A stretch of DNA of 64,000 nucleotides. Source: Tridacna crocea (lineage: Eukaryota > Mollusca > Bivalvia > Cardiida > Cardiidae). The stretch covers positions 66,987,277 through 67,051,276 of the forward strand of contig OX031056.1 in assembly GCA_943736015.1 (NCBI GenBank), written 5' to 3'. The position numbers were made by a program, and so were the translations under genes. Below are positions 5,909 through 58,535 of this stretch, piece by piece (the first letter of the stretch is position 1; each line of letters opens with the position of its first letter). Below the pieces are notes generated by a model that was not told where the DNA came from, made no database searches, and saw nothing but the letters and a program-made list of their open reading frames with translations.

Positions 5909-6039
5909 ATGAGTCTATTGTGGCAAAAGTTGTATAAAAAATGGAGAGATTTAAGGGGACGTGCCGAGAGAAAGAAAAAACTCAGTTTTGCAGATGCTGC
6001 GCTGATTTTGATCCAGAGCAATAAGAGGAAAAAAACAGG
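5909..6039 (+). CDS. candidate alternative first coding exon 1
   Basis: ATG opens 43 codons beginning MSLLWQKLYKKWRDLRGR, followed by a lysine-rich stretch and then a hydrophobic patch ADAALILI. The frame runs to ACAGG|GTAAGG, a good splice donor, and ends two bases into a codon. The exon at 58366 starts with one base, so joining them restores a codon (GGT, Gly). It has the same end phase as the candidate first exons at 27452 and 49166, as expected for alternative promoters feeding one downstream exon. The protein is short, basic and amphipathic in look, with no family recognised. The 5' UTR and promoter are not defined; the family C element lies just upstream. The alternative is a chance open frame next to a chance donor. 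Confidence 0.55.
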
Positions 6040-6097
6040 GTAAGGCTTTCCTATTGTGTTTTGTGCTTTGAATAACAAATAGTGGCTTTTCTCAGTA

Positions 6098-6325
6098 TTA
6101 ACCCTTACTACACAATCCCTCCTTTTGACGACCCTGAGAAAGAAGCCTTTAGAAAACATTGTGGAAAAAGGAGAAAATGCTGGTAACCAGCATTTTCTCC
6201 TTTTCCCACAGTGTTTTCTGCTCTTCACAAAACATATTTTTAATTTTCAGCCACTTTTATTTTGTCGTCTGCAATTGCTTTGGATTTGGACAAGCCTAAA
6301 ATATTGTAGTTTGGTAATGAGTTAA
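6098..6325 (+). mobile_element. HP MITE
   Basis: Complete 228-bp copy. X arm TTAACCCTTACTACACAATC, full core, Y arm ending TTTGGTAATGAGTTAA. It starts about 60 bp after the splice donor of the candidate exon, inside the putative intron. Confidence 0.9.
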
Positions 6326-6600
6326 CCCTTTAGATGCAAGCATGACTTACTGACTTGTTGCAGACACTGTATAGATCAAGAGAAGACTGCACAAGATTTG
6401 CAGTCTGATCTTGTCTTGACACTGTCCCTTTAGGAGATATTTTTCTCCAAAAAATAAGTTTGAAATAATATTATTCAGGTTATTACCATCACCTTGAAGA
6501 TTTATTTTCAACTTGTTGAACAGGATAAGGTTTAAGATCAAATTCTGATACTTTTGGATTTGTAACAGCTGTCTGTAAATGGTCCTAGATAACTTATATG
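6322..6600 (+). mobile_element. N-family MITE, probable
   Basis: Starts at the TTAA shared with the HP copy (TTAACCCTTTAGATGC). It holds the N palindrome at 6371-6420 (ACTGCACAAG / TTGCAGTCTGATCTTG). The right end is not clear, so the end coordinate is approximate. Confidence 0.5.
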
Positions 6601-6622
6601 GCATCACATTACATCATTCCTT

Positions 6623-6762
6623 GTATGATCAGGTGGCAGGGGACTTGGAAACTTGTTCACGACTGTGGTAAATCATGTCGCCTCAAGCCAAAGGAGGCTC
6701 TAGGCGATATGATTCACCACAGCCGTGAACAAGTTTCCAAGTCCCCTGCCACCTGACCGTAC
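6623..6762. repeat. long hairpin, ~55-bp arms
   Basis: TCAGGTGGCAGGGGACTTGG at 6629 is mirrored by CCAAGTCCCCTGCCACCTGA ending 6756. The arms run 6629-6683 and 6702-6756 with an 18-bp loop and few mismatches, and weaker pairing continues outward. It is unrelated to the HP and N hairpins. Confidence 0.8.
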
Positions 6763-6893
6763 CACGTATTTATTATATTGCAAAGTTTTCCCCTTTCAAA
6801 TAGCATTTAGCAAAATTTTCCTGTATTTTAATCTCATGAATCGAGTATGCTGACAATCAAATAGAATTTCCCTTCTGAGTGCCCAAATTCAAT

Positions 6894-6925
6894 GGAAACT
6901 GACGTCACTGGAAACTGACGTCACT
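6894..6925 (+). promoter_or_regulatory. tandem CRE-like motif, 2 x 16 bp
   Basis: GGAAACTGACGTCACT occurs twice head to tail. Each copy holds a full TGACGTCA, the consensus CREB/ATF site. No promoter or exon is seen next to it, so function is only possible. Confidence 0.4.
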
Positions 6926-7138
6926 AAAACATGCAGTTTGGTGCATAAAGGTGCAGTCTGGTGCAGTCAGCCGACATTTTGGATGTTGTGCTGCACATGT
7001 TGTGATGTTTACAGGGCACTCAAAAGGGAACCTGGTTTTACATGGATTTTGCCAGGGAACATGATATATATGTTCCCGGCATGTTAACAAATCAAATCAC
7101 AAGAAATTTGTTGCAGTATAAAAATACTTCTGATCTCC

Positions 7139-7353
7139 TTACCAAACTACAAAATTTAAAACTTGCCCATAGAAAGCGTTTGCAGACAATAAATTGGCAG
7201 CCACTCAAATGACTAGATTTGTTTTTGATAATGCAGAAAACATTGCAGGAAAAGAAAGAAATGTTGGTTAACAACATTTTTTCCTATTGTAACAATGTTT
7301 TCAAAACCTTTGTCATTGTCATCAAAGTCAGGATTGTGTGGTAAAGGGTTTAA
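7139..7353 (-). mobile_element. decayed HP MITE
   Basis: Y arm ACCAAACTACAAAATTT and GCGTTTGCAGACAATAAA, a degraded core GTTGGTTAACAAC, and an X arm ending GGATTGTGTGGTAAAGGG. Confidence 0.75.
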
Positions 7354-7560
7354 GAGACATCTGACCATATTTTGGTTTACAGGCTTTTCTAATATTTTTG
7401 ACAACAACTGGTAAATTTGAAATATCAACTTCATCCAGCCTGCCTCCACCCATTTTTGGGCCAAAAACTAGCTTTATGCAGCTTTATAGTGCAGAATGCT
7501 GGTTACCTGCATTTTCCATTTTTGCAGCTATGTTGTTGGATGCTGGTGTGCTTCTGTTCG

Positions 7561-7788
7561 TTAACCCATTCCCAAACAATCACTGGTTTTTACGGGTCTT
7601 GAATAGTAGTCTTTTGAAAACATTGTGGGAAAAGGAGAAAATGCTGGTAACAAGCATTTTCTCCTTTTCCCACGATGTTTTCTACCCTATCATAGACAGA
7701 AATCATCTTTTCAGCAAAAGTTAAATTGTCGTCTGCAAATGCTTTGAATTTGGTCTGTCCAAAAGCTTGTCGTTTGGGAAAGGGTTAA
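7561..7788 (+). mobile_element. HP MITE, CCCAAACAATC subfamily
   Basis: TTAACCCATTCCCAAACAAT to GTCGTTTGGGAAAGGGTTAA, with an intact core except one tip base. Close relatives are 30079-30308 and 61194-61416. Confidence 0.9.
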
Positions 7789-8186
7789 AACTTGGGAGTT
7801 TTTGGCCAAAGGTTACGGAAATCAGATGCCTGCAACAATATCCTCTGATGTTGACAGCAAACTTGAGGGTTTTGCAGAATTATTTGTTCCTAGATATTGG
7901 CAAAAAGGAAGGAAAGATGTGGTTTTGTAATTCGATCTGAAGTCCTCCCAGAACCAACTAATTTGTATAAATTGGAAAAACAAAACCTTTTCTGACTAAT
8001 TAGCACCTTTTATGGTGGGCAAGAAATTGTTTTAAACTGAAAATATAGTAGCAGTTTTCAATTGTTAAGCCAATTAAGTTTATCAGAAGTCGCCAACTAA
8101 ATGCCAGAGACAAGTTGAAATTTCTCCACATCCGTTTCCCCTCCTTAGGGATATATTGCAAAGCAGGCATGTGCAGCTGAACATGT
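7789..8186. other. non-coding stretch
   Basis: Contains a 48-codon open run directly after the MITE end, judged chance (see rejected list). Otherwise nothing recognised. Confidence 0.3.
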
Positions 8187-8262
8187 TTAACTCTTTACCA
8201 AACAATCCTGACTTTTAATGACACTGAAAAAAGAAAGCTTTTGAAAACATTATGGGAAAAGG
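8187..8262 (+). mobile_element. HP MITE left arm, truncated by HINE repeat
   Basis: TTAACTCTTTACCAAACAATCC leads to AAAACATTATGGGAAAAGGA and stops abruptly at the start of the 167-bp-unit repeat. The missing half is not found on the other side of that repeat. Confidence 0.7.
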
Positions 8263-8788
8263 AGATTGGCCATTTGATGCCCCTGGGGTCAAAACTAAGG
8301 CTCCTCCCTGGGGGTCACAAGTTTGAAACATCGAAACAAAGAAGAAAAACTTTAAAAATCTTCTCTGAAACTAGAAGGTGCAGAGCTTTGATATTTGGTA
8401 TGTAGCATCTCCTAGTGGACCTCTACCAAGTTTGTACATATGATGCCCCTGGGGTCAAAACTGGCCCTGCCCTGGGGGTCACAAGTTTTAAACATAGGAA
8501 CAAAGAAGGAAAACTATAAAATTCTTTTTCTCTGAAAGTAGAAGGTGCAGAGCTTTGATATTTGGTATGTAGCATCTCTTAGTGGACTTCTACCAAGATT
8601 GTTCATATGATGCCCCTTGGGTCAAAAACTGGCCCCTCCCTGGGGGTCACAATTTTGAAACATAGGAACAAAGAAGGAAATCAGAATTATTTGGCCTTGA
8701 ACTTTGATATTTGGTATTAATCTTCATTGTAGACCTTTACTGCTTAGTACTCAGGTGAGCGATATAGGACCATCATGGTCCTCATGTT
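8263..8788 (+). mobile_element. HINE-like element D, 5'-truncated, ~3 core units
   Basis: About three 167-bp units carrying GATGCCCCTGGGGTC and GAGCTTTGATATTTGGTATG. The 3' end is complete: CTCAGGTGAGC, then the hairpin AGGACCATCATGGTCCT. The head TAGCTCACC is missing. It is non-coding. Placement as a Helentron-type non-autonomous element rests on architecture (see findings). Confidence 0.75.
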
Positions 8789-9290: not shown

Positions 9291-9321
9291 TGTAATCCAA
9301 CAGTAGTTCTGCTACAATTGT

Positions 9322-10850
9322 ATTAAAACTTTGCACATTCCTTTATTATATTTATCATTCATTAAAGGTTTGCAAAATGCAATTTTGAAGTCTCAACTCC
9401 TGGAATTATATCCCCTTTGACTTAAACATATATTTATTTCAGGGTCTCTCAAACATTACAAAGTCAAGGATGATATCGTGTACATGGATATCTGTATTGA
9501 AACTTTGCACATACATTGATCATCAATTGAAGGTTTACAAGACGCCAATTTTAAGTCTCCTTCTGGTTGAGAAATTATCTCCCCTTGGACTGAAACTTTT
9601 TTTTTTAGTTCAGGGTAGGGCTCCGTATCGGTCAGTTTGATCGATACGATATTTGTATCGATACAAAATGATCGATATTCGATATATCATATGATATTTC
9701 AATTTTCACGAAAAGAAAGAAAAAAATGCGAAAATTGTGTTTGTTCTTTTTTCAGCATACCTGAAAAACAAAATACCGCAAATTTAACACTTCTAGATTG
9801 TATTGAAATTTCATAATTATGTAGGCCTAAATTAATATGAATTCTAACTAGATCTACATTTACTACTCATTAAAAAGCTGAAAAGACAGTTTAAGAGGAC
9901 TCTGATCGGACAATGTCAAGGTGACATTTTGTCGTGTCATGGGTTTCCGTGTTTTTTTTTTTTCACCAAACAATTTTTCATGCGTGTTAATTTCTGGATA
10001 GGTATGTTCGCATGATTCGACATAGATTTCTCAATAAGGATTAGAACTAGCATCAAAACCTGTTATTTTACTCACAATAAACAGATAATGGCCTTTTTTG
10101 TCCATGTTTCTTCTTGCGTGAGGTCTCGCGTGTGATTAACATTTGTTATGCAAATTTCAAGTCTTTAAAATGATTTACACAATAATTTACGCGAGTCGGA
10201 ACACTGATTTAAGATAATCTAATGGAGAAAGAGATTTGATTTTCGAGCCACATTTTTCGGCAATATTAAAAGATCGACCTAATAAAATCTTCGGAAGGTT
10301 GAAAGGTCACGGCTTCAATTATTTCCATCGCTACCTCTCGATCACATCATGAGATGTTCATTACCTTTCTTTAATCAACTATATTGACCAATTATCAGCG
10401 TAAATTTGTCTGCAATCTGCTGATTGATGCATAATTTGCAGATTTCAAACAACATGACGGGGGAACGAGAATAGGGGTATTAGCTAATTGTCATCCATTG
10501 TGTAACGGGTACAGGGCGAATAATAAAGAATGACGCATTTCGATTGGTTGTAAGTTTCCCAGGTAGCCACACCTACCTCTACGACTACTTTAGAGATTAC
10601 CTAAAGTAAACTCGTAATGAATTTCGCCGTTGTAAACAACTAAACTGGGTATTTATATGCTTTACTTTTATTTTCTTTTGATGATCGATATTTTGTTCGA
10701 TACAGAAACGTTCGATCCGATATATCTATCGAACGTAAAATACCGGTTTTCGATATATATCGAGTACCGGTACGGAGCCCTAGTTCAGGGCCTCTCAAAT
10801 ACTACAAAATCAAGGAAAAAATTGGTCAATTACAGCTTTAGCAGGGTATT
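9322..10850 (+). repeat. two diverged ~178-bp tandem units, second split by hAT element
   Basis: Unit 1 (about 9322-9499) and unit 2 (about 9500-9615 plus 10783-10845) share AAACTTTGCACAT, AAGTCTC...CTCCCC-type and CAGGGNCTCTCAAA blocks. The hAT-like insertion interrupts unit 2 at GTTCAGGG. Confidence 0.6.
9616..10782. mobile_element. hAT-like non-autonomous element, 1167 bp
   Basis: Termini TAGGGCTCCG and CGGAGCCCTA are exact inverted repeats, flanked by the 8-bp duplication GTTCAGGG (9608-9615 and 10783-10790). Eight-base duplications with TAGGG-like ends define hAT. Both ends are rich in CGATA-type motifs (GATCGATAC, ATCGATATTCGATATAT), which may be subterminal binding sites. No transposase frame, so it needs a partner elsewhere. 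Confidence 0.85.
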
Positions 10851-11211
10851 AAGTCACATCCTTTGACAATTAAGTTCTAGTTGCACTTACAATGCTTTTC
10901 TATTAGTCTTTGCTTAACAAATGTGAACATATATATCAGACCAAATGGAAAGGAGTGTTCATTTCAAAATGACTGATGCACACCAACAAGTAGAGCTCCT
11001 GAATCACCAACAGCAACACTTTTGTGTGGACCCCATGATAAACTTTGTGAGCTTTCAAAGTAATGGATACTGTCACTGTAAGAATTAGAAGGACTGCAAA
11101 GATATTGAATATGTGTCTGATCCAAATATCACACAGGCAAAAGTACCCCATTTTTAAAAGCTGAATGTGACATTGATTTTACAGGCAAGTGTTTTTGTAA
11201 TTTCTTATTTG
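10851..11211. other. non-coding stretch
   Basis: Nothing recognised between the tandem duplication and the HINE head. Confidence 0.35.
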
Positions 11212-13244
11212 TAGCTCACCTAAGCACAAAGAGCTCAAGATGAGCTTTTGAGATCATGCTGTGTCCGGCGTCCAACATCAAGCTTTACCTTTTGTGTGCC
11301 TTAGAGGCCACATTTTCCATCCAAATCTTGTGTAACATGGTCAGAATAGTTTGTCTTGATATCTTGAACAAGTTTGATAATGGGTCATGTTCGGTCAAAA
11401 ACTAGGTCACAAAATCAAATCTTAGAAAAACCTTGTGTAAGCTGTAGAGGCCACATTTTCAGTATGATACTTGTGAAAGTTGGTCAGAATTTTTTTTCTT
11501 ATATCTCCGAAGAGTTTGTTAATGGGTCATTCGGGTCAAAAAAGTTGGTCACTAGGTCAATTCGTAGAAAAACCTTGTGTATGCTCTAGAAGTCACACGT
11601 TCAGTCCAAGACTCCTGGTCAGAATGTTTTTTTTGATATCTCAACCAAGTTTGTAAATAGGAAATGTAAGGTCAAAAAGGAGGTCACCAAGGTCAAACCT
11701 TAGAAAAACCTTGTGCACGCTCTACAAGCAACAGCTTTTTGTTCAAAACTTTTAAAAGTTGGTAGGAATGTTTGTCTTGATGATACCAGTTTGAAAATGT
11801 GTCATGTCCAGACAAAAACAAAGTCACTTGGCAAAATATAAGAAAAAAGCTCTAGAAGCCACATTTTCTGTCCAAAACTCTTTAAAAAGGGCCTTGATGA
11901 TACCTCAGGCCAGTTTGAAAATGAGTCTTGTTGGGCCAAAAACCTGGTCACTAGCTTAAATCTTCAAAAAAGCTAATATATGCTTTAGAGGCCACATTTT
12001 CAGTCCAAAGATCTTGAAAAATGGTCAGAATGTTTGTCTTGATTTTACCTTGCGCGAGTTTGAAAATGGGTAATGTCCGATCATTAACTCACTAGATCAT
12101 ATTTTGGAAAAACCCTCTAGAAGCCACAAGTTTCGTCCAAATCTCCTGAGGAAAGCTAGTGAGAATATTTGCCTTGAGTATATCTCATATGAGGAAAAAA
12201 AAAGGTCATATTGGGACAAAAACTAGGTCACTAGGTCATTTCATGGGAAAACCTTAATTACTGTCTAGAGGCAACATAATTAGTCCAAAACTCTTGAAAA
12301 TTGGTCAGAATGTTTGTCTTGATAATATCTCATAATACCTTAGGCAACTTTAAAAATGGATCATGTCAGGTTAAATCTAGGTTACTAGGTCAGATCTTTG
12401 AAAAACCTTGTGTATTTCTGAGAGGCTACACTTTTAAGGCAATTCCCATGAAACTTGGTCAGAATGTTTGTGTTGATGATTTCTTAAACCAGTTTCTTGA
12501 ACAAAATGGGTCATGTCGGATCAGTAACTAGGTCGCTGAGTCAAATCTTAGAAAGACTTTGTGTAAGCTCCAGAGTCCACATTTTCAATTAAAAACTCAT
12601 AAAAATCTTTTTATAATGTTTGTCAGTACATCTCAAAAGAGATTGAAAATGGGTCATATTTGGTCAAAAGACTCTGGTAAGCGACTTAACATCTTCGCAA
12701 GCCAAGGATACTAGGGTAGTACCCTTGGCCGCTCGCCTCTTTAAAAATCGAAGCTCCCGCTGCGCCTTTTCACTGGATGCGATCAAAACCCATCGCGTCC
12801 AATCAAACCATCCGTAACAAGAAATCTTTGGAAAACAGAAAACAATAATAGCGGCGCCCATCAAAAACGGAAGTTGTCGTGTTTGTGACAAAATTTGCCA
12901 CAAAAGAGTAGACGATCGATATTTAATGAGTTTTTTTTTGTTTACGATCAATTATGTGAAGTATTAGGACGGGTTCCATAGCCAAATGATTGCATCTGTT
13001 CGTCTTGTTTTGGTGTGACGAATCCGAACGCGCAGCCATATTTGATGCATAACCAACAAATTTTATTACGAGCATTTTGATTTGTCAGAAATAACATCAG
13101 CAAAGGTTACGCAACTCATGATATTCGACAGGTGGCGCAGTGGGAGTTTCGATTTTTAAAGAGGCGAGCGGCCAAGGTACGAAACGAACAAAGTGGAGTT
13201 CGTATCCTTGGTTTGCGAAGATGGCGACTTAAGGGCCCTCTTGT
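11212..13244 (+). mobile_element. HINE-like element E, ~10 core units, interrupted
   Basis: Head TAGCTCACCTAAGCAC is followed by a stem with GAGCTCAAGATGAGCTTTTG and a CGTCCAACATC stretch. About ten 130-155 bp units follow, each with GAGGCCACATTTTC, TTGGTCAGAATGTTTGTCTTG and ACTAGGTCACTAGGTCA blocks. The tail CTCTGGTAAGCGACTTAA...GGGCCCTCTTGT is split by the Mutator-like element 12690-13223. Similar repeats are common in bivalve genomes (general knowledge, not checked here). Confidence 0.75.
12690..13223 (+). mobile_element. Mutator-like MITE, type F1
   Basis: CATCTTCGCAAGCCAAGGAT at the left mirrors ATCCTTGGTTTGCGAAGATG at the right. The perfect 9-bp duplication GCGACTTAA lies at 12681-12689 and 13224-13232. 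The terminal inverted repeats extend about 90 bp with gaps. The second F1 copy is 42190-42725, in the opposite orientation. Nine-base duplications with long inverted ends are the hallmark of the Mutator (MULE) superfamily. Confidence 0.9.
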
Positions 13245-13245
13245 G

Positions 13246-14318
13246 TAGACTAACGAAGCTAACTGTTGCATCATGTGCTGTATAATCCAATTTAATCCTT
13301 AACCTGCTCATAATAATATGTTAAAAATCTTTTAAAGCTGAGTATAAAAACCTGAATATTGCTGTTTCAAAATTGTATTTGAGAAATATATCCCCTTTAA
13401 TCAGATGAAGTAGATCTATACATCTGTGCAGTCTAATCTTGACCTACACTGTCTGACTGTCAGTCTGTTTGGCCAAACATACATCTTTTAAAATCCTTGA
13501 TGAAATGGAACTTAATAGATTCCAAGTGAGGACATCTTAAATATATCGATCAAAAGAGGTCTTTTAAGGCTGGAGATACCATTTCAAGGAAATAACCTGT
13601 TTTAAAAGGAAAGTTATCTAACTGAAGTTATTCATGTATTTCTTGTCTTATTTAGTAAATAGTCAAGAGAGTTACGTAAAGTGATGGAAAATTATCAAAC
13701 TGAAATTATACATGTATTTCTTGTTTTGAGTAGTAAATATAGTCAAGGTGGGTTTGGTAAAGTCAGTGGATTGAACTGGATCTGTATTACATCAATTTGA
13801 ACTGATGGATCTGGAACAGACTCAATAACCAAACTTGACTGTTTTACTTCAATCTTGTACAAACCAAACAGGTTTTATCTTTCGAATAGCCACTTATTTC
13901 AGATCAAATTTGCTAGTCTGTCAGTACTTTCAGTACTTTGATTACACCCTATGGATTTGCATCTTATTACATCTTCAGGTACTTTTATAATCAAAGTACT
14001 GAAAGTACTGTTGGAAGGCGAGTTTAGAATATAGGCATAACATATTGTAATACATTTTCCTGTACTTAAATCGCCTCTCCTGATACAGCAAAGTCTATAG
14101 AGTTGTGCAATGTTCCTGTGCAATGAAGACCAGTTTACCATCCTGAGTTTTAGCAAACTTGAAGAAGGCTTGTGAAAATATGTTGAAAAAAATTAAAACG
14201 AATGGACTTTTCTGAAACTCCTTACCATTTCATTTGAAGGAAAAGTTTTATGTGATATCAAAGAGTTTTAATTTGCTGTTACCCGTATATGTTTTTACGT
14301 TGTATCAAAACTTAGATC
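13246..14318. other. non-coding stretch with N core, tandem duplication and hairpin
   Basis: Holds an N-family palindrome (13402-13455), two diverged ~75-bp tandem copies around CATGTATTTCTTGT (13610-13745), and a perfect 23-bp inverted repeat CAGTACTTTCAGTACTTTGA... (13922-13944 with 13988-14010). No exon seen. Confidence 0.5.
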
Positions 14319-14713
14319 TAACCCTCTATTAGCCCAATAATGAGTTTAAAAGGTCTAGGAAGAAGGCTTGAGAACTTTTGGTCTGAAAAGGAGAATACGG
14401 TGCTAATTGACATTTTTCCTTTTCCTAAAATGTCTTCCATCCTATTTCATACAGGTTCCATCGATGGTGCCAGATCAAAAAGTTGCTATCTGAAAATGCA
14501 TTCAATTTTGGAAAGTCTGAATTTTTATTCTTCGTATAAAGAGCCAAGAAAGTTTCTCCTTTTCAAAATTAAGTTTTTAAATGGCCTCTTTCTCAGGGTT
14601 GTTAAAACTGTACTTGATAGGGTATGGTAAAGGATTAAAGAATAGTTTTTGCTTGAAAATGCAATCAATTTTGATAGATCTAAAACTGTAACTCTGTAAT
14701 GAGATGATTAATT
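14319..14713. mobile_element. strongly decayed HP copies
   Basis: CCTCTATTAG...GAAGAAGGCTTGAGAAC, a core relic GAAAAGGAGAATACGGTGC, then TTTCTCAGGGTTGTTAAAAC and GGTAAAGGATTAA. A bare Y-arm relic follows at 14640-14713. Confidence 0.5.
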
Positions 14714-14825
14714 TCTTGAAAGCCTGTACCATTTTACTCCATGGATAATTTTATTGAGAGAGCAAAGAGTTTTTAGAAAGGTACATTTTAGAGTATAGAA
14801 ACTGAGATTCAGCCTTTCAGATCAC

Positions 14826-15174
14826 ATATACTGACTTTCAACAATGTTGAAGAATAGGCTTTTCAAAGCATTGTAGGAAAAGTAGAAAATAATGATAATC
14901 AACCTTTTGTTTGACTTTCCTACAATGTTTTCCATCTTAGTAACCCTTTACAAAATCCTTCAGAAAATAACCAAAAAAGGGCCGTCTACATTAAAGCAAT
15001 TAGCAGATAATAAGTTAAGAGCAGCTGAAAATGTGCCGTTTGGCTGGGAAAAAGTACAAAAAATAGTGGTAAAAAGAGAAAATACTCGTGACTAGCGTTT
15101 TTTCCTTTTCCAAAAGTATTTTGAAACTTTTTTTTCCCCCTTGAGGTTGTCAAAATTTCAGTGTCGTTTAGTTA
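14826..15174. mobile_element. two decayed HP copies
   Basis: Core relics GTAGGAAAAGTAGAAAATAATG near 14872 and GAGAAAATACTCGTGACTAGC near 15077, with flanking arm relics. The second ends at GTTTAGTTAAAAGG. Confidence 0.5.
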
Positions 15175-15299
15175 AAAGGTTTTTTTTTATTTGTTTACCA
15201 TTTTGTTTGAAATATACTTCATCAAGACTGAAAAAGACTTTCAAAACACACGACTTTCAATGTTCAAAACGGAGATTTAACATTTAGATTATAATACAT

Positions 15300-15440
15300 G
15301 TGCTGGGTTTTAATGACCTTAAAGAATGGGGGCTTTTTAGAAAGGGAAGGGTATTTTGAAAGCATGCAGGAACATGAGAAAATACTGGCAACGAACATTT
15401 TCTCCGTTTTGCGCAATGTTTACCATCCTATCAAGGATAA
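15300..15440 (+). mobile_element. HP remnant
   Basis: GAGAAAATACTGGCAACGAACATTTTCTCC-like core with TTTACCATCCTATCAAGG. No TTAA ends remain. Confidence 0.45.
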
Positions 15441-16142
15441 CCGACCAACATCATTTGACGGTTGACTTCTTGGGTCCTATAAGGAACATCCGAAAGTGTT
15501 CTTCCTTTATACGATTCTTGTAATCTATGACTCTGTTAACCCTTATACTAGAGTGCTAGATTGATGAAAATGGCATTTTACATCTCGGGCAAAATGCTTA
15601 ATTATTGCAACCTCACCCTGGGCTGTTTTGGTCGGGTTCAATGATTACAATATAGCTAATCCGACATAAGATTGCATATTCTGTGCAGACTAAAGAATCG
15701 TATGCCTTGTCTTCAAAAGAGACAGGCGTAATAAACGATCTAAGGGTTCATTGACATTAACGCTTGTCTTTCATCAGTCCCGCATAACCGGAATGTACGT
15801 TCAGCTTGTCGGCAAACATGAAAGCAAAAGGATTGCCAATTCGTCAATATTGAGATACACCCTATTCCTTTGTTCGACAAAAATATATCGTGCACAGTTA
15901 CACAGATACAGGCCCTTGGTCCGTATTCTTAGAAAATCACGAACACGTCCGATGCACTCTAGGACAGTGGGGATTCTCCCTGTCAAGTTAATTTATCATT
16001 GTGTTATTCAGTTTTGGAAAAAAGTGTATAGTTGAAGGAAATTCTTTTGAGGAAAATAAACGGGAATATATAAGGTAAAGATTTCAGTTCTAATAATGAC
16101 GGAGGTAAGTGATTATGATAACAATTCATTGCGATAAGCGTT
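15441..16142. other. non-repetitive stretch with possible start codon and donor
   Basis: Less AT-rich than its surroundings and free of the named repeats. Near its end, ATGACGGAG at 16096-16104 is followed at once by GTAAGTG, a textbook donor, and ATATATAAGG lies 30 bp upstream. The exon would end in phase 0 and so would not fit the common exon at 58366. No long open frame is convincing. Confidence 0.3.
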
Positions 16143-16381
16143 TATTCTTTACCTGACAAAGAAATTTCAGACTAAGTTGACATTGAAAGCACTGATTCAT
16201 ACAGATGACAAATTCAGGGTAGCCCAAATTAGCGACGAAATTTGTTCTTGATAGGGTAGAAACATTGTGATAAAATGAAAAAAAAAAAAATGCCGGTTTT
16301 CGATTGTAATTTCTCCTCTCCTCTCGATGTTTTTAAAAGCTTGATTTTCAGAGTCGTTTCAACTGAGAGGTAAAGAGTTAA
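16143..16381 (-). mobile_element. decayed HP MITE
   Basis: AATTTCAGACTAAGTTGACATTG and TTTGTTCTTGATAGGGTAGA are Y-arm relics. The core is disrupted by an A run. The right end reads GAGAGGTAAAGAGTTAA. Confidence 0.6.
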
Positions 16382-17438
16382 ATATTTATGAATAATTGCT
16401 GAACGTTAAGCAACGTGACGACCAAAAGAAGTTAAAATTCTTTGCATGTTAAGACGGTTACAGATCATGTTATTTTCATTTTCGACGTAGTAAAATCCGG
16501 TCATACTCGTATATAAGGAAAGAAGTGATCAGCCTGGAACCAAGGCTATATATATCGGTACATCATACTGACCAGAACTACTTCGAAATGACACATCTAT
16601 TGTGATTTCAACTGATTTACCTTTTTCTTTTCACGGGTCTCCGGAATCAAAACTCGGCCACGCCGATGCGTAACAATAACCTAGTCATTAATCATAAAGT
16701 CAAGCACAACTTTGATAAAAGAAAAATATTTCTTTGAAAGAGAAAATTTTTTTTTTAGCACTTGATGATTCAAAGGAATTTATTTCATTGAAATTTTACT
16801 CCTCCAATAGAAGGCGAGAATGAAAATCTTGCCTTCCAAAAACCATAGCCTGAGATCAGATGGCATATAATCCTTTTCTAAACTTGGTACCTTGTTAGTC
16901 ATCCATGCAAACTAATTAAAAAAAAATCTTTTCATCTGGCAACAAATAGCAGTTCAGTTATTGACATCACAAACTTCCAGACTAATCAATACAAAGCTTG
17001 ATGAATGATGGTATAATCAGCAAAGGAATGGCTTTATTTGTATTAATTTATTTTTTTAAATAAGTGAGACTTTGGAAAAAGTTGATTGAGGACAGTGAAC
17101 ATATTTGACCTCTGAACTTTATGTGCCCTGAATATGGTTGGGAATGGCAAATGATATGCATGGATTTCACATGACAGCTTTTTTAGTTTTGTCAAATATG
17201 ATTAAATTGTGGTCACATTTTGTCAGGTAATAAAATTCTGTTGCATCCAAAGTGAAAGATGGCTTTTCATTGGTATTTTTCTTTTAGAAGAAATATGACT
17301 GTGAAAATGACTCAGAAAAATAGAAGCAAGTGGTCATCAGCATTTTCTCTCTTCCCGATAAAGATTTCAGTGGCCCTCTTACTTTCGCTTATTAGAACAG
17401 GTGATTATTTGGTAGAGGGTTTATGCATCAGAACATGG
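16382..17438. other. non-coding stretch with HP remnant at the end
   Basis: 16382-17300 has no recognised feature. 17325-17420 carries an HP relic (GGTCATCAGCATTTTCTC ... GATTATTTGGTAGAGGG). Confidence 0.4.
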
Positions 17439-17666
17439 TTAACCCTTTCCCAAACAAGCCCTGGTTTTTACGTGTCTGCAGTAAAAGTCTTTTGAAAACA
17501 CTGTGGGAAAAGGAGAAATTGCTCGTAACCAGCAATTTCTCCTTTTCCCACAGTGTTTTCTACCCTTTTTGAGAACTTTCTGCCATTTTCTCAGAATCTA
17601 AAATTGTCGTCTGCAAACTCTTTTGGTTTGGAAGAGTCCAAAATTTGTCATTTGGAAAAGGGTTAA
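17439..17666 (+). mobile_element. HP MITE, GAAATTGCTCG core variant
   Basis: TTAACCCTTTCCCAAACAAG to TTTGGAAAAGGGTTAA. The core is GAAATTGCTCGTAACCAGC. A full copy related to 2793-3020. Confidence 0.9.
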
Positions 17667-18243
17667 TTGAACTGTAGAGGTAATGATAGTTATTCAGCTC
17701 TTTTGTCTTTGTTGAAAACAGTTGCTGCCGAGAAGTTGAGAGAACATCATAAAAAATGACACAATGAATTGACTTTTTCATTCTACAGATAGAAGATTCT
17801 GTAAAAGAAGGAGAAAATATGTTAAAAATGTTTTGAAAAGCTATCTTTGCTGGGGTCATGAAAACTTAGTATCAAGAGAGTGAAAAGGTATGAAACCATA
17901 GTAACTATTGAGTGATGTTCTATTGTAAATTCCAAACATGATTTCTGAAATAACCAGCTCTCATATTGATGGCTGATTGAATTATGCCAGATAATGAAAA
18001 ACCCTCTAGATGATTTCTTGGTGTTTTTCTGTAAATGGAAAAGTACGCATGGCCACTAAAAATGATTTTGTTTGTGTATATGTAAGTGCAGAAAGTTGAA
18101 TGCTTTATTTACATGTAAAGGTTTTTTACTGTTACATTATCAATGTTATGTTAGTCTTTGGTATTCTTGTGAAAATAAAAAAAATATTCATGGCCACTGT
18201 ATAAAGTTCATGGTTTACAAATTGCAGCTAGTTAAAGGCTGTA
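17667..18243. other. non-coding stretch with HP relic
   Basis: 17790-17890 holds a faint HP relic (AAGAAGGAGAAAATATG, TTTTGAAAAGC, GGGGTCATGAAAAC). The rest is unassigned. Confidence 0.4.
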
Positions 18244-18246
18244 TTA

Positions 18247-19240
18247 TGCCTCAGTCACAAATAACGAACTGCCGCCGGACGGCGAGTTTTTTAGGAGATT
18301 GTGACGCAATCGTCCGGGGACCGCACTGCGACCGTCCGGTGGCAGCTCAATTTGAACGGCGGCAGTTCAATTTTGAGACGCCGTCCGGCGCCCGTTCGAA
18401 TAATTGGACGGAGACCGGACGATTTTTTGGCCATCGGAGAGCCCGTTAACTCAGCGTCCGGGCACCGTCCAGGCACTGTGCGGTGACCAGACGACCGTCC
18501 AGCGACCGGACGGTCATCGGGGGGCGACCGGACAGTCTCCGTCTAGGCGCCGGGCAGAGCCCGGACGGGTACCGCCCGATTATGAATATTTGTACGGGCA
18601 CCGTCCGGTGACCGTCAGATCGCTGTGCGGCATTGATTTTGTCAAGTCTTTCCGGACGGCGACCGGACGGCAAATATATACTTTGGCGACATGAGAATAT
18701 CATAAAAGTGTATATGAATGTCTTACTTCATCATAATTGATCAGTTCTGAAGGGAAAATGGCACTTATACCGCCACAAAATCTGTTGAACCTTTTCCTTC
18801 ATTAAGATAGATTGCAAGCTACTCACTGATGGCAGAAAAATGTAATAGCAGCTGCTGCTGTTTACGATCTGTTTACGATCAGAAGCGTGCTAGGCGAGGC
18901 CGCAGAGTGAGGACTGTGTGGGTCAAAACGTGGCTACAGAGGCGTGTCATCCTGGGACAATATGACACGCCTCTGTAGCTAGCCAGACGGCGGCACAAAG
19001 TTTGAAAGATGTCCGTCCGATCGCCGTACGGTCGCCTTCTGGTCGCCGCCCGGTGCCTTTCTAAACTGAAAACTGCACGCATGGCATTTCCAAAGAAACT
19101 GCCGTCCGATGCCCGTTTGATTTGTGACTGCTTGGGCAAAATGTATGAAAATCGTACGGCGCCCGTACGATGTCCCAAAGTTTTGAATCGGCGAAGTTGG
19201 AAGAAATCGTCCGGCGCCTGTTTTATTTGTGACCTAGGCA
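18247..19240. mobile_element. GC-rich DNA element with TTA duplication (Harbinger-like?)
   Basis: Left end TGCCTCAGTCACAAATAACG mirrors the right end ATTTGTGACCTAGGCA. TTA flanks both sides (18244-18246, 19241-19243). Three-base TTA/TAA duplications are typical of PIF/Harbinger, so that class is inferred. The inside is far richer in GC than the neighbours and is dominated by variants of CGTCCGG and CCGGACGG in both orientations. It also holds an 18-bp inverted repeat (GCTACAGAGGCGTGTCAT, 18933-18980). Overlapping open frames on both strands reflect high GC, not genes. Confidence 0.7.
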
Positions 19241-19257
19241 TTAGCTTATGAGCATTC

Positions 19258-19441
19258 TTAAGCCCTTACCAGATAACAAAATATCACTCTTCCATATTGA
19301 AAGTTTGCAAACAACATATTGACTGTGGCTCAAGTCAAAGTGTTTACCTTTCATAATGGGAAAAGGAGAAAATGCTAGCAACCAGTATTTTCTACTTTTT
19401 CCATGATTTTTCAAGTGTTTTTCATTGGGGTCATAAAGGGG
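19258..19441 (-). mobile_element. HP MITE, right end lost
   Basis: TTAAGCCCTTACCAGATAAC, core GGAGAAAATGCTAGCAACCAG, X-arm start TTTTTCATTGGGGTCATAAA. The X arm breaks off where the 21-bp minisatellite begins. Confidence 0.75.
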
Positions 19442-19460
19442 TATTTTGATACAGGTATTT

Positions 19461-20335
19461 TGCCCTGTGTCTCTCTAGTCTTGTCCTGTGTCTCAGTGGT
19501 CCTACCATGTGTCTCATTGGTCTTGGCCTGTGTCACGTTGGTCTCTGTGGTCTTTTTCTGTGTCTCACTGGTCTTTTCTTGTGTCTCGCTGGACTTGTCC
19601 TGTGTCTCACTGGTCCTGTCCTGTGTCTCTCTGGTCCTGTCCTGTCCTATCCTGTGTCTCACTAGTCCTGCCTTTTGTCTCACTGGCTCTGACCTTTGTC
19701 TAACTGGCCTTGTCCTGTGTCTGGCTGGTCTTGTCCTATGTCTCCCTGATCTTTTCCTATGTCTTACTTACCCTGTCTCATTGGTCCTGTCTTGTGTCTC
19801 AGTGGTCCTGTCCTGTGTCTCAGTGGTCTTGTCCTGTGTCTCTGGTCCTGCCACGTGTCTCAGTGGTGTGTCTCAGTGGTCCTGCCCTGTGTCTCGCTGG
19901 TCCTGTCCTGTGTCTAGCTGGTCTTGTCCTGCGTCTCCCTGATCCTGTCCTGTATTCTTGCTGGTCCTGTCCTGTCTTGCATCTCGCTGGGCCTGCCCTT
20001 TGTCTCACTGGTCCCGTCCTGTGTCTGGCTGGTCCTGCCCTATGTCTCGCTGGTCCTGTCCTGTCCTGTGTCTCGCTGGTCCTGTCCTGTGTCTCGCTGG
20101 TCTTGCCCGGTGTCTCGCTGGTCTTGCCCTGTGTCTCGCTGGTCGTGTCCTGTGTCTCACTGGTCTTGTCTTGTGTCTCTGTGGTCCTGCCCTGTGTCTT
20201 GCTGGTCTTGTCTTGTCTCTCAGTGGTCCTGTCCTGTGTCTCACTGGTCTTGTTTTGCGTCTCACTGGTCTTGTCCTGTGTCTCACTGAACTCATCCCTT
20301 CTGGCTGCTATCCCACTAATCTTGTGTGGCATCTA
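19461..20335. repeat. 21-bp minisatellite (CTGGTCCTGTCCTGTGTCTCA)
   Basis: Around 40 copies of a 21-bp unit close to GGTCCTGTCCTGTGTCTCAC. The unit is a multiple of three and lacks stops in several frames, so long frames appear on both strands (SCVSLVL heptads on +, SETQDKT heptads on -). The unit drifts by small indels that shift frame, there is no conserved single frame, and no flanking splice sites stand out, so it is called non-coding. Confidence 0.85.
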
Positions 20336-20958: not shown

Positions 20959-20980
20959 TTTGGAAAACAGCGTAATGTCA

Positions 20981-27451: not shown

Positions 27452-27561
27452 ATGAACCCGACCACAATGCGTTTTCGGACAGCTTGCCGTGTGATAACTT
27501 ACATCCTGGGTATTTTCAAAAAACAACGAAGTCGTGGAAAGACAATTCCAAAATTTAAAAG
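27452..27561 (+). CDS. candidate alternative first coding exon 2
   Basis: ATG opens 36 codons beginning MNPTTMRFRTACRVITYILG and continuing with a basic stretch that includes KKQRSRGK. The frame runs to TTTAAAAG|GTAAGTTT, a near-consensus donor, and ends two bases into a codon. That is the same phase as the exon at 5909 and complements the one-base start of 58366 (junction codon AGT, Ser). The short hydrophobic stretch VITYILGIF flanked by arginine and lysine could be a membrane-associating or amphipathic N-terminus; this is inference. TTTATATAAATG overlaps the start codon, and no clear promoter is defined. The family is unknown. Confidence 0.55.
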
Positions 27562-31620: not shown

Positions 31621-31995
31621 CATCTTCGTGAGCAGTTTACGATCACTACGTGGATCTTACCTTGGCTGATTGAGCCCGATTTCGAGATTCCTGCGATGCG
31701 CCCTCTATTGGATGTTGGTTATTACCCCCCTTTACATCATATTTCTAAAAGCAAATGAAATATCGTTTTACAAGCCCCTTACGAATACACATGAAGCGAC
31801 AAGCACATCCACATTCGAAAGGTAGTGACCTTGTTCTATTTGTATCAAAGACGAAATGCTATAAGCGATTTCATTCATTGCAGCTAAAGCTGGCTGCATC
31901 CAATGAAAAGGCGTATCGAGTGAATGTAAAAATCAAGCTCGATTCGCCAAGGGTAGAGTTGCATAGTGAATTGTCAGCCTTGGCTTGCGAAGATG
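31621..31995 (+). mobile_element. Mutator-like MITE, type F2
   Basis: CATCTTCGTGAGC at the left, GGCTTGCGAAGATG at the right, and the perfect 9-bp duplication GCATATCAG at 31612-31620 and 31996-32004. It is the shortest of the three F2 copies, lacking a ~27-bp internal piece that the 57219 copy keeps. Confidence 0.9.
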
Positions 31996-43090: not shown

Positions 43091-43169
43091 TTCATCTCTG
43101 TGAAGTATGATACCATGTGAGACAACACAGAAGCATGGATCCATAAAATTCATTGTGCTTAACATGCAG

Positions 43170-43564
43170 CATCTTTGCAAGCCAAGGCTGACGATTCACT
43201 ACGCTACTCTAGTCCCTTGGCCGATCGAGCTTGCTTTGTACATTCCCCCGATACGCTTTTTCATTGGATGCAGCCGGCTGTTATTGCAACGAATGAAATC
43301 ACTCATAGCATTTCATCTTTGATAACAATAGAATAGAAGGTAAACATGGAAACCCACGTGGATGTCTGCTTATCGCTTCATTTTGAATAATTGTATTCGT
43401 AAGTGGTTTGTAAAAACGATATTTCATTGGCTTTCAGAAATATGATCTGAAGGGGGGGTAATAACCAGCATCCAATTGAAGGAGCATCACAGGAATCTCA
43501 AAATCAGGCTTAATCAGCCAAGGTAAGATCCACGAAGTGATCGCAACCTTAGCTCACGAAGATG
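43170..43564 (-). mobile_element. Mutator-like MITE, type F2
   Basis: CATCTTTGCAAGCCAAGGCT to TTAGCTCACGAAGATG with the perfect 9-bp duplication AACATGCAG at 43161-43169 and 43565-43573. Opposite in orientation to the F2 copies at 31621 and 57219. Confidence 0.9.
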
Positions 43565-47702: not shown

Positions 47703-47933
47703 TTAATTCATTACCAGACAACAATATTTTAGACTGGTCCAAATCAAAAGCATTTGCAGACGACAAAATAAAAGTGACTGAACATTTGAAATTTGTTTTG
47801 TGAAGGGTAGAAAACATTGTGAGAAAAGGAGAAAATGCTGGTTACCAGCATTTTTTCCTTTTCCCACAATGTTTTCTAAAGGCTTCTTTCTCAGAGACGT
47901 CAAAAGTAAGGATTATTTGGTAATGGGTTTTAA
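47703..47933 (-). mobile_element. HP MITE
   Basis: TTAATTCATTACCAGACAAC to GATTATTTGGTAATGGGTTTTAA. It shares its terminal TTAA with an A2 element. Confidence 0.88.
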
Positions 47934-48158
47934 CCCTTTACCCCATAAGGCATTTCTATGGTATCTCTAATTGACCCTAAATAACAGCTAGGATAAAGCA
48001 GTTTCTTATGTGTATATGGCACCTTTTGATAGCATAGAAAACATTGTGACAAAAGGTGAAATTGCTCTTCACGAGCAATTTCACCTTTTGCCACAATGTT
48101 TTCCAAATGCTCCTACAAGCAATGCGTAGAAATGAGTATCTGTGGAGTAAAGGGTTAA
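47930..48158 (-). mobile_element. HP-A2 MITE
   Basis: TTAACCCTTTACCCCATAAG to GAGTATCTGTGGAGTAAAGG plus TTAA. Core GGTGAAATTGCTCTTCACGA. Reverse-oriented relative of 57657-57884 and 59701-59926. Confidence 0.9.
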
Positions 48159-48529
48159 AGGCAAATTGAGGGTCAAGAGGTATAACAATTATTTATTGCA
48201 TGTTACTGAAGGTATTACAAAAAGGAATTGTTCACTTTTTGCCAGAGGTAAACCATTATTTATCATTCCATTACAATGTCCCTAGGGATTTGTCCCACTT
48301 GTTACCTCATAACCTTGTGAAACAAGATAAGTGTGTAGCTGAACAATAATTATTTAAAAACATCCTTGTAAAGTATGATATATCTGTAATCAACAAAATT
48401 TCATATGGAAATATTGTGACAAAATAAGAAATTGGTTGTGGTAAACTGAATGGCCTTATATCTGAGTATATTTTTATAGCTGGTCTAATAAAAGAGAAAG
48501 AAATTCATCAGTTTCAGGTGATGATTTAA
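48159..48529. other. non-coding stretch
   Basis: Nothing recognised. Confidence 0.35.
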
Positions 48530-48973: not shown

Positions 48974-49165
48974 TCTAGCAAGTTGAATACAGGAAAAGAA
49001 AAGTAGCAGTTGCACAAAACAGTGATGCTAATTAAATGCTTTATTGTTAAATTGACAAAATGCATTCTTCAGTGTTTCATAGGAATGGGTGAAAGACTCA
49101 GTTATATATAAATTACTTTGAAGTGTTATAAGAATGGATGAAAGACTCAATGTTATATTATAATA

Positions 49166-49251
49166 ATGGCAATGCAAAAGCTAAAGCATAGTCTGCTTGT
49201 TGGATTTGGGTTTAAACGGTTAGAGGATGGTGAAGATGATGATGACAGCAG
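49166..49251 (+). CDS. candidate alternative first coding exon 3
   Basis: ATG opens 28 codons beginning MAMQKLKHSLLVGFGFKRLE and ending with an acidic run (DGEDDDDS). The frame reaches GACAGCAG|GTTTGT, a weaker donor than those at 6040 and 27562. It ends two bases into a codon, again compatible with the one-base start of 58366 (AGT, Ser). The frame is open upstream of the ATG for several codons, and a diverged ~45-bp tandem repeat (GAATGGATGAAAGACTCA) lies just upstream, so the 5' boundary is uncertain. It is the least secure of the three first-exon candidates. A HINE D element begins ~120 bp downstream. Confidence 0.4.
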
Positions 49252-49369: not shown

Positions 49370-50897
49370 AAGTGCTCATGGTGATCTTTTGTGATCGCCC
49401 AATGTCTGTCGTCCACAATCTTCTTCTCTTAAACCACTGGGTCCATCTTGATGAAACTTGGCAGAGATGTTCCTTGGGTAAAGCTCTATCAAAGTTGTTC
49501 AAGAGATTGAATTCCAGCCACATCTCTGGTTGCCATGGCAACCATAAGGGAAAAAACAGCAAAATCTTTGAAAATCTTCTCTAAAACTAGAAGGCGTAGA
49601 GCTTTGATATTTGGTATGTAGCATCTCCTAGTGGACCTCTTACCAAGATTGTTCATATGATGCCCCATGGGTCAAAACTGGACCTGCCCCGGGGGTCACA
49701 AGTTTGAAACATAGGAACAAAGAAGGAAAACTTGAAAAATCTACTTCTCTGAAACCGAAAGGTGCAGAGCTTTGGTATTTGGTATGTAGCATCTCCTAGT
49801 GAACCTCTTTCAAGATTGTTCATATGATGCCCCATGGGTCAAAACTGGCCCTGCCCCGGGGGTCACAAGTTTGAAACATAGGAACAAAGAAGGAAAACTT
49901 TAAAAATCTTCTTCTATGAAAGTTGAAGGTGCAGAGCTTTGATATTTCATATGTAATATCTCCTAGTGGACCTCTACGAAGATTGTCCATATGATGCCCC
50001 TGGGGTTAAAACTGGCACTGTCCCACGGGTCACAAGTTTGAAACATAGCAACAAAGAAGGAAAACTTTACAATTCTTCTCCTCTGAAACTAGAAGGTGCA
50101 GAGCTTTGATATTTGGTATGTAGCATTTCCAAGTGAACCTCTACCAAGATTGTTCATATGATGCCCCTGGGGTCAAAAGTAGCCTGGCCCTGGGGGTCAC
50201 AAGTTTGAAACATAGGAACAAAGAAAGAAAACTTTAAAAATCTTCTTCTCTGAAACTAGAAGGCGCAGAGCTTTGATATTTGGTATGAAGCATCTCCTAG
50301 TGGACCTCTACCAAGATTCTTCATATGATGCCCCTGGGGTCAAAACTGGCCATGCCCCATGGGTCACAAGTTTGAAACATAGGAACAAAGAAAGAAAACT
50401 TTAAAAAATCTTTTTCTCTGAAACTAGAAGGTGCAGAGCTTTGATATTTGGTATGTAGCATTTCCTAGTGGACCTCTACCAAGACTGTTCATATGATGCC
50501 TCTGGGGTCAAAAGTGGTCCTGCCCCAGGGGTCACAAGTTTAAAACATAGGAACAAAGAAGGAAAATTTTAAAATTCTTCTCTCTGAAACTAGAAGATGC
50601 ATAGTTTTGATATTTGGTATGTAGCATCTCTTAGTGGATCTCTACCAAGAGTGTACATATGATGCCCCTGGGGTCAAAACTAGCCCGGCCACGGGGGTCA
50701 CAAGTTTGAAACATAGGAACAAAAAAGGAAAACTTTAAAAATCTTCTCTAAAAGTAGAAGATGCATTTTGCACATTTATATACCTTGTCAGAATTTTTTG
50801 ACCTTGAACTTTGATATTTGGTATTTATCTTCATTGTAGACCTTTACTGCTTAGTACTCAGGTGAGCGATATAGGACCATCATGGTCTTCTTGTTTA
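49370..50897 (+). mobile_element. HINE-like element D, 5'-truncated, ~8 core units
   Basis: Starts inside the head (AGTGCTCATGGTGATCTTTT). About eight 167-bp units follow with GAGCTTTGATATTTGGTATG and GATGCCCCTGGGGTC, then the tail ACTCAGGTGAGCGATATAGG and hairpin GGACCATCATGGTC. Unit lengths are strikingly regular (166-168). Confidence 0.8.
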
Positions 50898-55713: not shown

Positions 55714-55950
55714 TGTTACCATACAAAAAAATTTTAGACTGAATGTTCAAAGTGAAAGCATTAATTTTGTAGATGACATAATTATATAAAGGATGCTTAA
55801 TATATTGTTTGTGTCTCTGAGAAGGTGGAAAAAAAATGTGGAAAAAGGAGGAAATTGTGGGAGAAAATGCCGGTTACCACTATTTCTTGTGTTTATGGTT
55901 ACAATTTTACAAAGCTTCTTTTTCAAGGTCATAAAAACAGGGCCATCATT
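55714..55950 (-). mobile_element. decayed HP MITE
   Basis: TTACCATACAAAAAAATTTTAG, GAAAGCATTAATTTTGTAGATG, core relic GAGAAAATGCCGGTTACC. Confidence 0.55.
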
Positions 55951-56649
55951 CTAGGAAGGAATTTGCAATAGTATGTGTTCAAATTAAATGCCAGCATGGA
56001 TATTTTAGTATCTCTGCTATATGAACGGCGAAGTCGACTTCATTGACAACAACCTGGTAGTTAAGGTGGGATTCGAATTTCATATTCCAGAGTGTAGCTT
56101 TACAAAATGTCGTGGTTGTTTGCATGGAAACATTCTTCTGGAAAATATTATGTTAACAGGTAAATTGACAGATTTTCCTTGTCTTGTTTAAGCAGTATTG
56201 TACCTATTTGAATGAAAGAGGATACAGTCCATCAAATATCAAGCAAGCATATTAAGGAAACTCAAAATATTGCAGCTTTGAAGAGGTGTTTGTTGGCAGC
56301 AGGAACATTTCACATGTTAATTTCCTGTAGGTCTTAGTTTCACGTTTGCAGAGTACAGCTTGATAGCACAATAATTTCATGTTTGCAGAGTAGAGCTTGA
56401 TCGCGCAATAATAGAAGGACCTGAGGTTAGGTTAGGTTTGTTTCACAGTAGTTTTTACAACAACCATTATGGCTCTCTGCAGTGAATCAGTTTTCTGACA
56501 AAAGTCAACAGGTTTTGTCAAGGTTGTCTACTGTTTTTGTCTCCAGGAGCACCTAGAGCTGGGGATTTGTTTGAGAATGAACAAGTTTGAGAGAGAAAAT
56601 ACTGATAAAAAAACTTGAAAAGAAGGCTTTAAAAACAGAACCAATAAGG
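55951..56649. other. non-coding stretch
   Basis: GTTTGCAGAGTA(C/G)AGCTTGAT is duplicated in tandem (56345, 56382). Otherwise unassigned. Confidence 0.35.
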
Positions 56650-56747
56650 TTGAGCTGGTTACCAGCATTTTCTTCTTTTCCCGCAATGTTTTCTAAAGGC
56701 TTCTATCTCAGGGTCGTAAAAACTAGGGATTGTTTGGTAAAGTTTAA
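56650..56747 (-). mobile_element. HP MITE right half
   Basis: GAGCTGGTTACCAGCATTTT through AGGGATTGTTTGGTAAAGTTTAA. The left half is absent. The TTAA at 56744 joins directly to the 88-bp array. Confidence 0.7.
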
Positions 56748-57218
56748 AACCTGCAGACTGATAAAGATGTACTTTGTAGTGCCAAAAGGTTTGAGCAATG
56801 TGGGAGTTTGATAACAACAGACTGATAAAGATGTATTTTGAGACTGATGTAGATGTATCTCTTTGTAGTGCCAAAAGGTTTGAACATTGTGGGAGTTTGA
56901 TAACAGCAGACTGATAAAGATGTATTTGAGACTGATATAGATGTATCTATTTGTAGTGCCAAAAGGTTTGAGCATTGTGGGAGTTTGATAACAGCAGACT
57001 GATAAAGATGTATTTGAGACTGATACAGATGTATCTATTTGTAGTGCCAAAAGGTTTGAGCATTGTGGGAGTTTGATAACAGCAGACTGATAAAGATGTA
57101 TTTGAGACTGATATAGATGTATCTATTTGTAGTGCCAAAAGGTTTGAGCATTGTGAGAGTTTGATAACAGCAGACTGATAAGATGTATTTGAGACTGATG
57201 TAGATGTATCTATTTGTA

Positions 57219-57620
57219 CATCTTCGTGAGCCAAGGTTACGATCACTATGTGGATCTTACCTTGGCTGATTTAGCCCGATTTCGAGATTCCTGCGATGCC
57301 CCTTCTCTTGGATGCTGGTTTATACTCCCCTTTACATCATATTTCTAAAAGCCAATAAAATATCATTTTACAAACCGCTTACGAATACACATGAAGCATT
57401 AAGTAAACATCCACATTGGTTTCCATGTTTACCTTCTATTCGAAAGGTAGCGACCTTGTTCTATTTTTATCAAAGATGAAATGCTATGAGCGATTTCATT
57501 CATTGCTGTTAGAGTTGGCTGCAAATTATGAAAAAGCGTATAGAGGGAATGTAAAAATCAATCTCGATCCGCCAAGGGTAGAGTAGCGTAGTGAATCGTC
57601 AGCCTTGGCTTGCAGAGATG
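57219..57620 (+). mobile_element. Mutator-like MITE, type F2, inside the array
   Basis: CATCTTCGTGAGCCAAGG to CCTTGGCTTGCAGAGATG with the 9-bp duplication CTATTTGTA at 57210-57218 and 57621-57629. The duplicated bases are part of one array unit, so the insertion is younger than the array. Confidence 0.92.
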
Positions 57621-57656
57621 CTATTTGTAGTGCAAAAGGTTGAGCATTGTGGGAGT

Positions 57657-57884
57657 TTAACCCTTTACTCCATAGATACTCAATTCTACGCATTGCTTAT
57701 AGGAGCCTTTGAAAAACATTGTGGCAAAAGGTGAAATTGCTCGTGACGAGCAATTTCACCTGTGGTCACAATGTTTTCTATGCTATCAAAAGGTGTCATA
57801 TACACATAAGAAACGGCATCATCCTTGCTGTTATTTAGGGTCAATTAGAGATACAATAGATATGCCTTATGGGGTAAAGGTTAA
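57657..57884 (+). mobile_element. HP-A2 MITE inside the array
   Basis: TTAACCCTTTACTCCATAGA to CTTATGGGGTAAAGGTTAA. Core GAAATTGCTCGTGACGAGC. It occupies the TTAA of an array unit (GAGTTTAAAACCTGCAG), so the host site is known exactly. Confidence 0.92.
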
Positions 57885-57950
57885 AACCTGCAGACTGATA
57901 AAGATGTATTTGAGACTGATATAGATGTATCTATTTGTAGTGCCAAAAGG

Positions 57951-58215
57951 GGCCCCCATGGGTGGCTCAGTGGTGAGGGTGTTGGACTCGTGATCTTGTG
58001 GTTCTGAGTTCGATACCCGGTTGAGGCGAACTTTCTTTCTGGCATATTTTCGCCCCTCACCTCTGCAGAAGCATGTGAGAAAAGTAGTTGGTGGCTTTGG
58101 AAAGAAAGTTGTGTTAGCACCGGTGTGAGAAAGCTAGGAAGCACATGTGCGTCACCGACTGCCATGATATGACCATAGCTGTTAAAGTGGCATTAAACCC
58201 CAATACAACCAACAA
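57951..58215 (+). mobile_element. tRNA-derived SINE inside the array
   Basis: 265 bp flanked by the 12-bp duplication AGTGCCAAAAGG (57939-57950, 58216-58227). Pol III A-box TGGCTCAGTGG (57963-57973) and B-box GTTCGATACC (58008-58017). The tail reads GTGGCATTAAACCCCAATAC. It splits an acceptor-like motif of the array. A headless relative lies at 62935-63116 on the other strand. Confidence 0.88.
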
Positions 58216-58365
58216 AGTGCCAAAAGGGTGGTGCATTAATTGTGTGAGTTTAAAGCCTGCAGACTGATATATATGTCTTTTATTTATTTGTAGTGCCAAA
58301 AGGGTTGTGCATTGTTAGAGTTTAAAACCTGCAGACTGATATTTGTATCTTTGGTTTATTTGTAG

Positions 58366-58535
58366 TGCCAAAAAGGAACTCCACAGATCCAAAACACTGC
58401 CAATCATCAGAACTACTAAAGTTACTACATCTGAAATCAGCCCCGTTTTGCCGACAGAATCAGGTCCCCAATATGTGGGGAGGAAACAGTCTGTTCCTAC
58501 TATCAACATCCTAAAAAGGGGCAAGAATAGTCCAG
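58366..58535 (+). CDS. candidate common coding exon
   Basis: A 170-nt open segment is preceded by TTTATTTGTAG (pyrimidine-rich acceptor) and followed by CAG|GTAAGAG (strong donor). It starts with one base, holds 56 codons and ends with one base. The peptide begins AKKELHRSKTLPIIRTTK; later residues include PTESGPQYVGRK and NILKRGKNSP. It is Ser/Thr/Lys-rich, probably disordered, with basic stretches and SP/TP-like sites. It fits the 2-base ends of the candidate first exons at 5909, 27452 and 49166. No domain or family is recognised. The next exon must lie beyond the window or be unrecognised. A stop-free frame continues upstream only into array sequence. Confidence 0.6.

Follow-up and report, generated by a model that had tools for sequence, protein, structure and literature searches.

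Tandemly repeated splice junctions, termed mirages, have been described in amphioxus; unit lengths are 10–72 bp in Adh3, 150–160 bp in BflGb6 and 157 bp in BflGb9, upstream copies are reported to be ignored by splicing, and such arrays have been suggested as a source of new introns (PMC3087553). Lancelet PGBD5 likewise has repeats that span splice sites, in an account that also cites Adh and TnC (PMC3902484). The locus considered here lies in a 64,000-nt stretch of bivalve DNA (Tridacna crocea; ‘the window’). It resembles the amphioxus cases in that tandem units, each with a splice-site-like junction, lead to an exon, unit length is of the same order (72–89 bp here), and the inner units are alike while the unit adjoining the exon is divergent. 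It differs from them in that only 8 exon bases (by eye up to 11) are repeated, the array is broken by three repeat insertions, the exon is a candidate and the source is a bivalve. Units carrying the junction of the neighbouring exon, which characterise a mirage, are present in nine copies, given that the exon is real. A narrow literature search for minisatellites at an intron–exon boundary or splice acceptor in molluscs returned nothing, which is no proof of absence.

The repeated junction upstream of position 58366

The minisatellite (56741–58376, + strand) contains nine copies of TTTGTAG/TGC(C)AAAAGG (slash, junction) and its uninterrupted units are 72–89 bp long. The acceptor before 58366, at the start of the candidate exon, is the ninth and final copy of the TTTGTAG/TGCCAAAAGG junction, an observation that is new here and goes beyond the first-pass annotation of this DNA. 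All nine copies fall within 1.6 kb, and 0 of 100 shuffles reach that number. Similarity to the array extends 8 bases into the exon, or 11 by eye when an additional A is tolerated. Units of 88 bp are ~95% alike, and the divergent unit adjoining the exon is 72 bp long. Upstream junction copies at 56869 and 58294 outscore the 58366 acceptor, and were an inner 88-bp copy used as acceptor in the phase of the exon, the transcript would run into a TGA after 14 whole codons (by eye).

Three insertions interrupt the array: a SINE-like element (57951–58216, + strand), a MITE-like element (57656–57885, no strand assigned; copies at 47929–48159 and 59701–59926) and a further repeat (57221–57625, no strand assigned; copies at 31623–31995 and 43168–43562). 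On either side of the SINE-like element stands a 13-bp duplicate of array sequence (AGTGCCAAAAGGG, at 57939–57951 and 58216–58228), and part of the element is 75% similar to 62932–63094; its tRNA-like head is apparent by eye only, and ARAGORN calls no tRNA.

Other repeats are abundant in the window. The palindromic hairpin core of a short MITE-like repeat (GGAGAAAATGCTGGTNANCAGCATTTTCTCC, with at most 2 mismatches) occurs at 26 places between 777 and 61297, giving 51 strand-wise matches in 64 kb (mean of 0.00 in 100 shuffles); sought as a sign of host contamination, the hairpin-repeat pattern gave 0 matches in collections of prokaryote and viral contigs. A satellite-like unit of 167 bp forms three separate arrays (8263–8680, 49575–50747 and 63518–63995), and literature searches with repeat strings, pieces of this unit included, returned nothing relevant and one unrelated zebrafish match. 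A 155-bp tandem array (16 copies, 77% matches) occupies 36237–38705, and a 21/42-bp minisatellite at 19464–20288, with frames open for 100–210 codons on both strands, is a source of false open frames.

The candidate exon at 58366–58535

Of the four open frames under consideration, 58366–58535 (+ strand) is the most credible. The splice-like signals given for it by the first-pass annotation are present: an AG precedes it, its frame is open from the second base on (the first belongs to a split codon), and it ends one base into a codon at a CAG/GTAAGA donor, which ranks 6th among the 3668 GTs of the + strand. The acceptor is mediocre (within the best 403 of 3631 AGs), and a better-scoring AG lies inside the exon, before 58458 (best 60 of 3631); by arithmetic, splicing there would call for a first exon in a different phase. 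No other AG-to-GT open frame of 90–400 nt on the + strand combines an acceptor that matches or beats the one before 58366 with a donor score of at least 6, the acceptor cut-off being set from this same exon; the minus strand has two, and shuffles contain a mean of 1.2 internal exons of such quality.

Coding signals are equivocal. The Fickett value of 0.86 is ambiguous (12.2% of segments of the same length in the window score as high, as do 68 of 295 open stretches in a framed comparison), and the amino-acid log-odds are +0.7 bits. The predicted peptide is polar, basic and Pro/Ser/Thr-rich. Of the 295 open stretches that span 56 codons or more, 9 reach its polar composition, the exon itself counted; seven of the other eight lie at 18.3–20.3 kb (2-kb GC 0.482, a region that includes a minisatellite), and one at a poly-G tract. 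The peptide contains two R-x-x-S/T-x-P motifs, RSKTLP and RKQSVP, 32 residues apart, which are candidate sites of the 14-3-3/basophilic-kinase type. All six frames of the window hold 41 such motifs, and outside the array at 19.6–20.3 kb just one other pair occurs in the same frame within 45 residues (44.9 kb, minus strand). The mode I-type consensus for 14-3-3 binding is R-S-x-pS/pT-x-P; as motif matches, RSKTLP fits this strict form and RKQSVP the loose form R-x-x-S-x-P. The paired motifs are suggestive, in tests of motif and composition that were picked after the sequence had been seen.

Homology searches added no assignment. A search with this exon, one part of a check suggested in the first-pass annotation, gave no significant match in Pfam or PDB. 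The four peptides and three other frames had no Pfam match up to E 10, and phmmer against PDB found nothing below E 1.1 for the four peptides, with one non-significant row for the 58366 exon (E 1.4), nine for frame c (E 1.1–1.9) and none for frames a and b. Relatives of the exon were sought in prokaryote contigs (237 pattern matches, 0 confirmed) and viral contigs (25 pattern matches, 0 confirmed); Pfam, PDB and these contigs are no fair test for a disordered animal exon. A frame-wise Pfam scan of most of the window, limited to E 1 in one scan and E 0.1 in the others, yielded just three matches, all scoring below the respective curated thresholds: Gly_rich_2 (E 0.74), Mito_fiss_reg (E 0.14) and ColG_sub (E 0.017). 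It left out 19901–20200, 36301–38600 and 49601–50700 (inside tandem arrays) on the + strand, and 10001–20200, 36301–38600, 49601–50700, 57501–58535 and one of the three frames of 58536–64000 on the minus strand. A 56-base G-rich tract lies at 62791–62846, and to judge by its position it is the probable cause of the weak matches to Gly_rich_2 and Mito_fiss_reg. Searches against Rfam, at gathering scores, and for tRNAs gave 0 matches. In the literature, peptide strings of the window had no match, and neither a narrow search on alternative first exons in bivalves nor a wider one found anything relevant among the matches listed.

Frames a, b and c and their shared splice phase

Three ATG-initiated frames on the + strand were proposed in the first-pass annotation as alternative first coding exons, and their coordinates, ATG starts, GT donors and ends two bases into a codon all proved correct. 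Frame a (5909–6039) has 131 nt, or 43 codons and 2 bases, and the donor AGG/GTAAGG; frame b (27452–27561) has 110 nt, or 36 codons and 2 bases, and AAG/GTAAGT; frame c (49166–49251) has 86 nt, or 28 codons and 2 bases, and CAG/GTTTGT. Among the 3668 GTs of the + strand the donor of b ranks 3rd, that of a 14th and that of c 149th, donor and acceptor scores alike being computed with generic splice matrices. Fickett values are 0.709 for a, 1.153 for b and 1.028 for c, equalled or beaten by 47%, 1.2% and 8.1%, respectively, of window segments of the same length, and amino-acid log-odds are 0, −4.6 and +6.2 bits, that of c being the highest of the four pieces. The two measures are mutually inconsistent across the four pieces, and both have little power because the sequences are short.

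Repeated DNA starts about 100 and 135 bases upstream of the ATGs of a and b, and a short imperfect direct repeat (TGGRTGAAAGACTCA..., by eye) at 49070–49165 lies directly upstream of c. None of the four pieces is itself repeated in the window (exon-only queries matched only themselves at E 0.01), and their flanks are rich in repeats. As a cassette exon, frame a would have a poor acceptor before 5905 (1370 of 3631 AGs are as good). The N-termini of a, b and c have no significant similarity to one another in shuffle comparisons, and descent of the frames from one another by duplication was rejected, with 69, 431 and 331 of 500 shuffles scoring equally high.

The agreement of the frames in phase and strand, which had been put forward as improbable by chance, turns out to be ordinary. 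Comparable frames were defined as running from ATG to donor over 80–400 nt with a donor score at least that of the weakest of a, b and c. The + strand has 29, of which 13 (those three counted) share the phase of a, b and c; on the minus strand there are 31, and the commonest phase there accounts for 12; the corresponding averages in shuffled sequence are 19.9 and 8.9. Since any seven or more frames force three into one phase, a shared phase alone is uninformative. Donors in one phase that fit a shared acceptor, as expected of alternative first exons, are indeed found, but the minus strand offers a similar set, and there is no excess of frames over chance (29 on + vs 31 on minus). This minus-strand set comprises 15710–15617 with nine phase-matched first exons, among which 63397–63313 and 19354–19270 have strong donors. 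A strict set was taken as an internal exon preceded by three or more first exons of matching phase, of which two had a donor score of at least 6, using acceptor and donor cut-offs derived from the 58366–58535 case itself; each strand has such a set, as do 2 of 60 shuffles, and 23 of 60 do when the condition of two strong donors is dropped. No other ATG frame of 80 nt or more on the + strand has a donor as good as those of a and b. When the minimum was lowered to 60 nt, four + strand frames had a donor score of at least 6, split evenly between phase 2 and phase 1, and the minus strand likewise had four. Together, the counts of strict and looser sets and of 60-nt frames lend slight support to a and b, and phase lends none to c. 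The case for three alternative first exons depends largely on selection. In genome scans, little should be read into a splice phase that a few frames picked by hand from 64 kb have in common.

Competing readings of the locus

Our preferred reading, with somewhat less than even confidence, is that the window contains one plausible internal exon, 58366–58535, behind a repeat-rich stretch. Most of the window would then be intergenic or intronic sequence full of repeats, lying within or before a gene with its body beyond 64000, and 58366–58535 would be an internal exon encoding a basic, Pro/Ser/Thr-rich stretch with two RxxS/TxP sites. Its 3′ splice site would have been multiplied upstream as the minisatellite, later split by the three repeat insertions, and the last junction copy would serve as the working acceptor, the other copies presumably being ignored, as in amphioxus mirages. 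Under this reading a and b are possible first exons, of which their shared phase is no proof, and c is unlikely to be one and is probably a chance frame. It is quite conceivable, on the other hand, that all four frames are open by chance in repeat-rich DNA that codes for nothing, and that the 58366 acceptor is no more than the final unit of a minisatellite in intergenic or intronic sequence. The lack of a + strand excess in candidate exons, whether initial (29 vs 31) or internal (1 vs 2), fits that reading, as do the shuffle averages (19.9 initial, 1.2 internal), log-odds near zero for a and the 58366 exon and negative for b, and the lack of a significant family or PDB match; it sits less easily with donors of b, 58535 and a that rank 3rd, 6th and 14th of 3668, the high Fickett value of b, the +6.2 bits of c, and the polar composition and paired motifs of the 58366–58535 peptide.

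A gene with two alternative promoters, at a (5909) and b (27452), yielding two N-termini joined to 58366 with c a chance frame, is unlikely. That these two best-donor frames are each in the phase that the best internal exon requires, that strict sets arise in just 2 of 60 shuffles and that b has a high Fickett value would agree with it; the fit of both phases is nevertheless a 1-in-9 event given the picks, the minus strand offers a comparable set (63397–63313 and 19354–19270 with 15710–15617), the 60-nt minimum adds two + strand frames with a donor of at least 6, both in the other phase, and repeated DNA begins close upstream of both ATGs (about 100 and 135 bases). The full model of the first-pass annotation, in which all three frames are spliced to 58366 and give differently targeted proteins, is highly improbable. 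All three are in the needed phase, and c has the best log-odds of the four pieces and a Fickett value of 1.028; against this, the donor of c is weak (149th of 3668), and with 13 same-phase + strand frames of its donor quality or better a third fitting frame is to be expected. As in known alternative-promoter genes, several ATG frames with donors in one phase lie upstream of a shared candidate acceptor, but here their number and phase are about at chance level.

Alternative first exons are common, so the present set, even if confirmed, would add one more example. Less ordinary is the repeated splice junction. We consider it improbable that a gene has two or three alternative first coding exons across 50 kb and splices them all to an exon with a nine-copied 3′ splice site; if it does, the locus would be a mirage outside the cephalochordates, in which competing acceptor copies could tune the choice of first exon or add stop-containing decoy exons. 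A case outside the phylum of amphioxus would show that the multiplication of splice junctions is a wider process.
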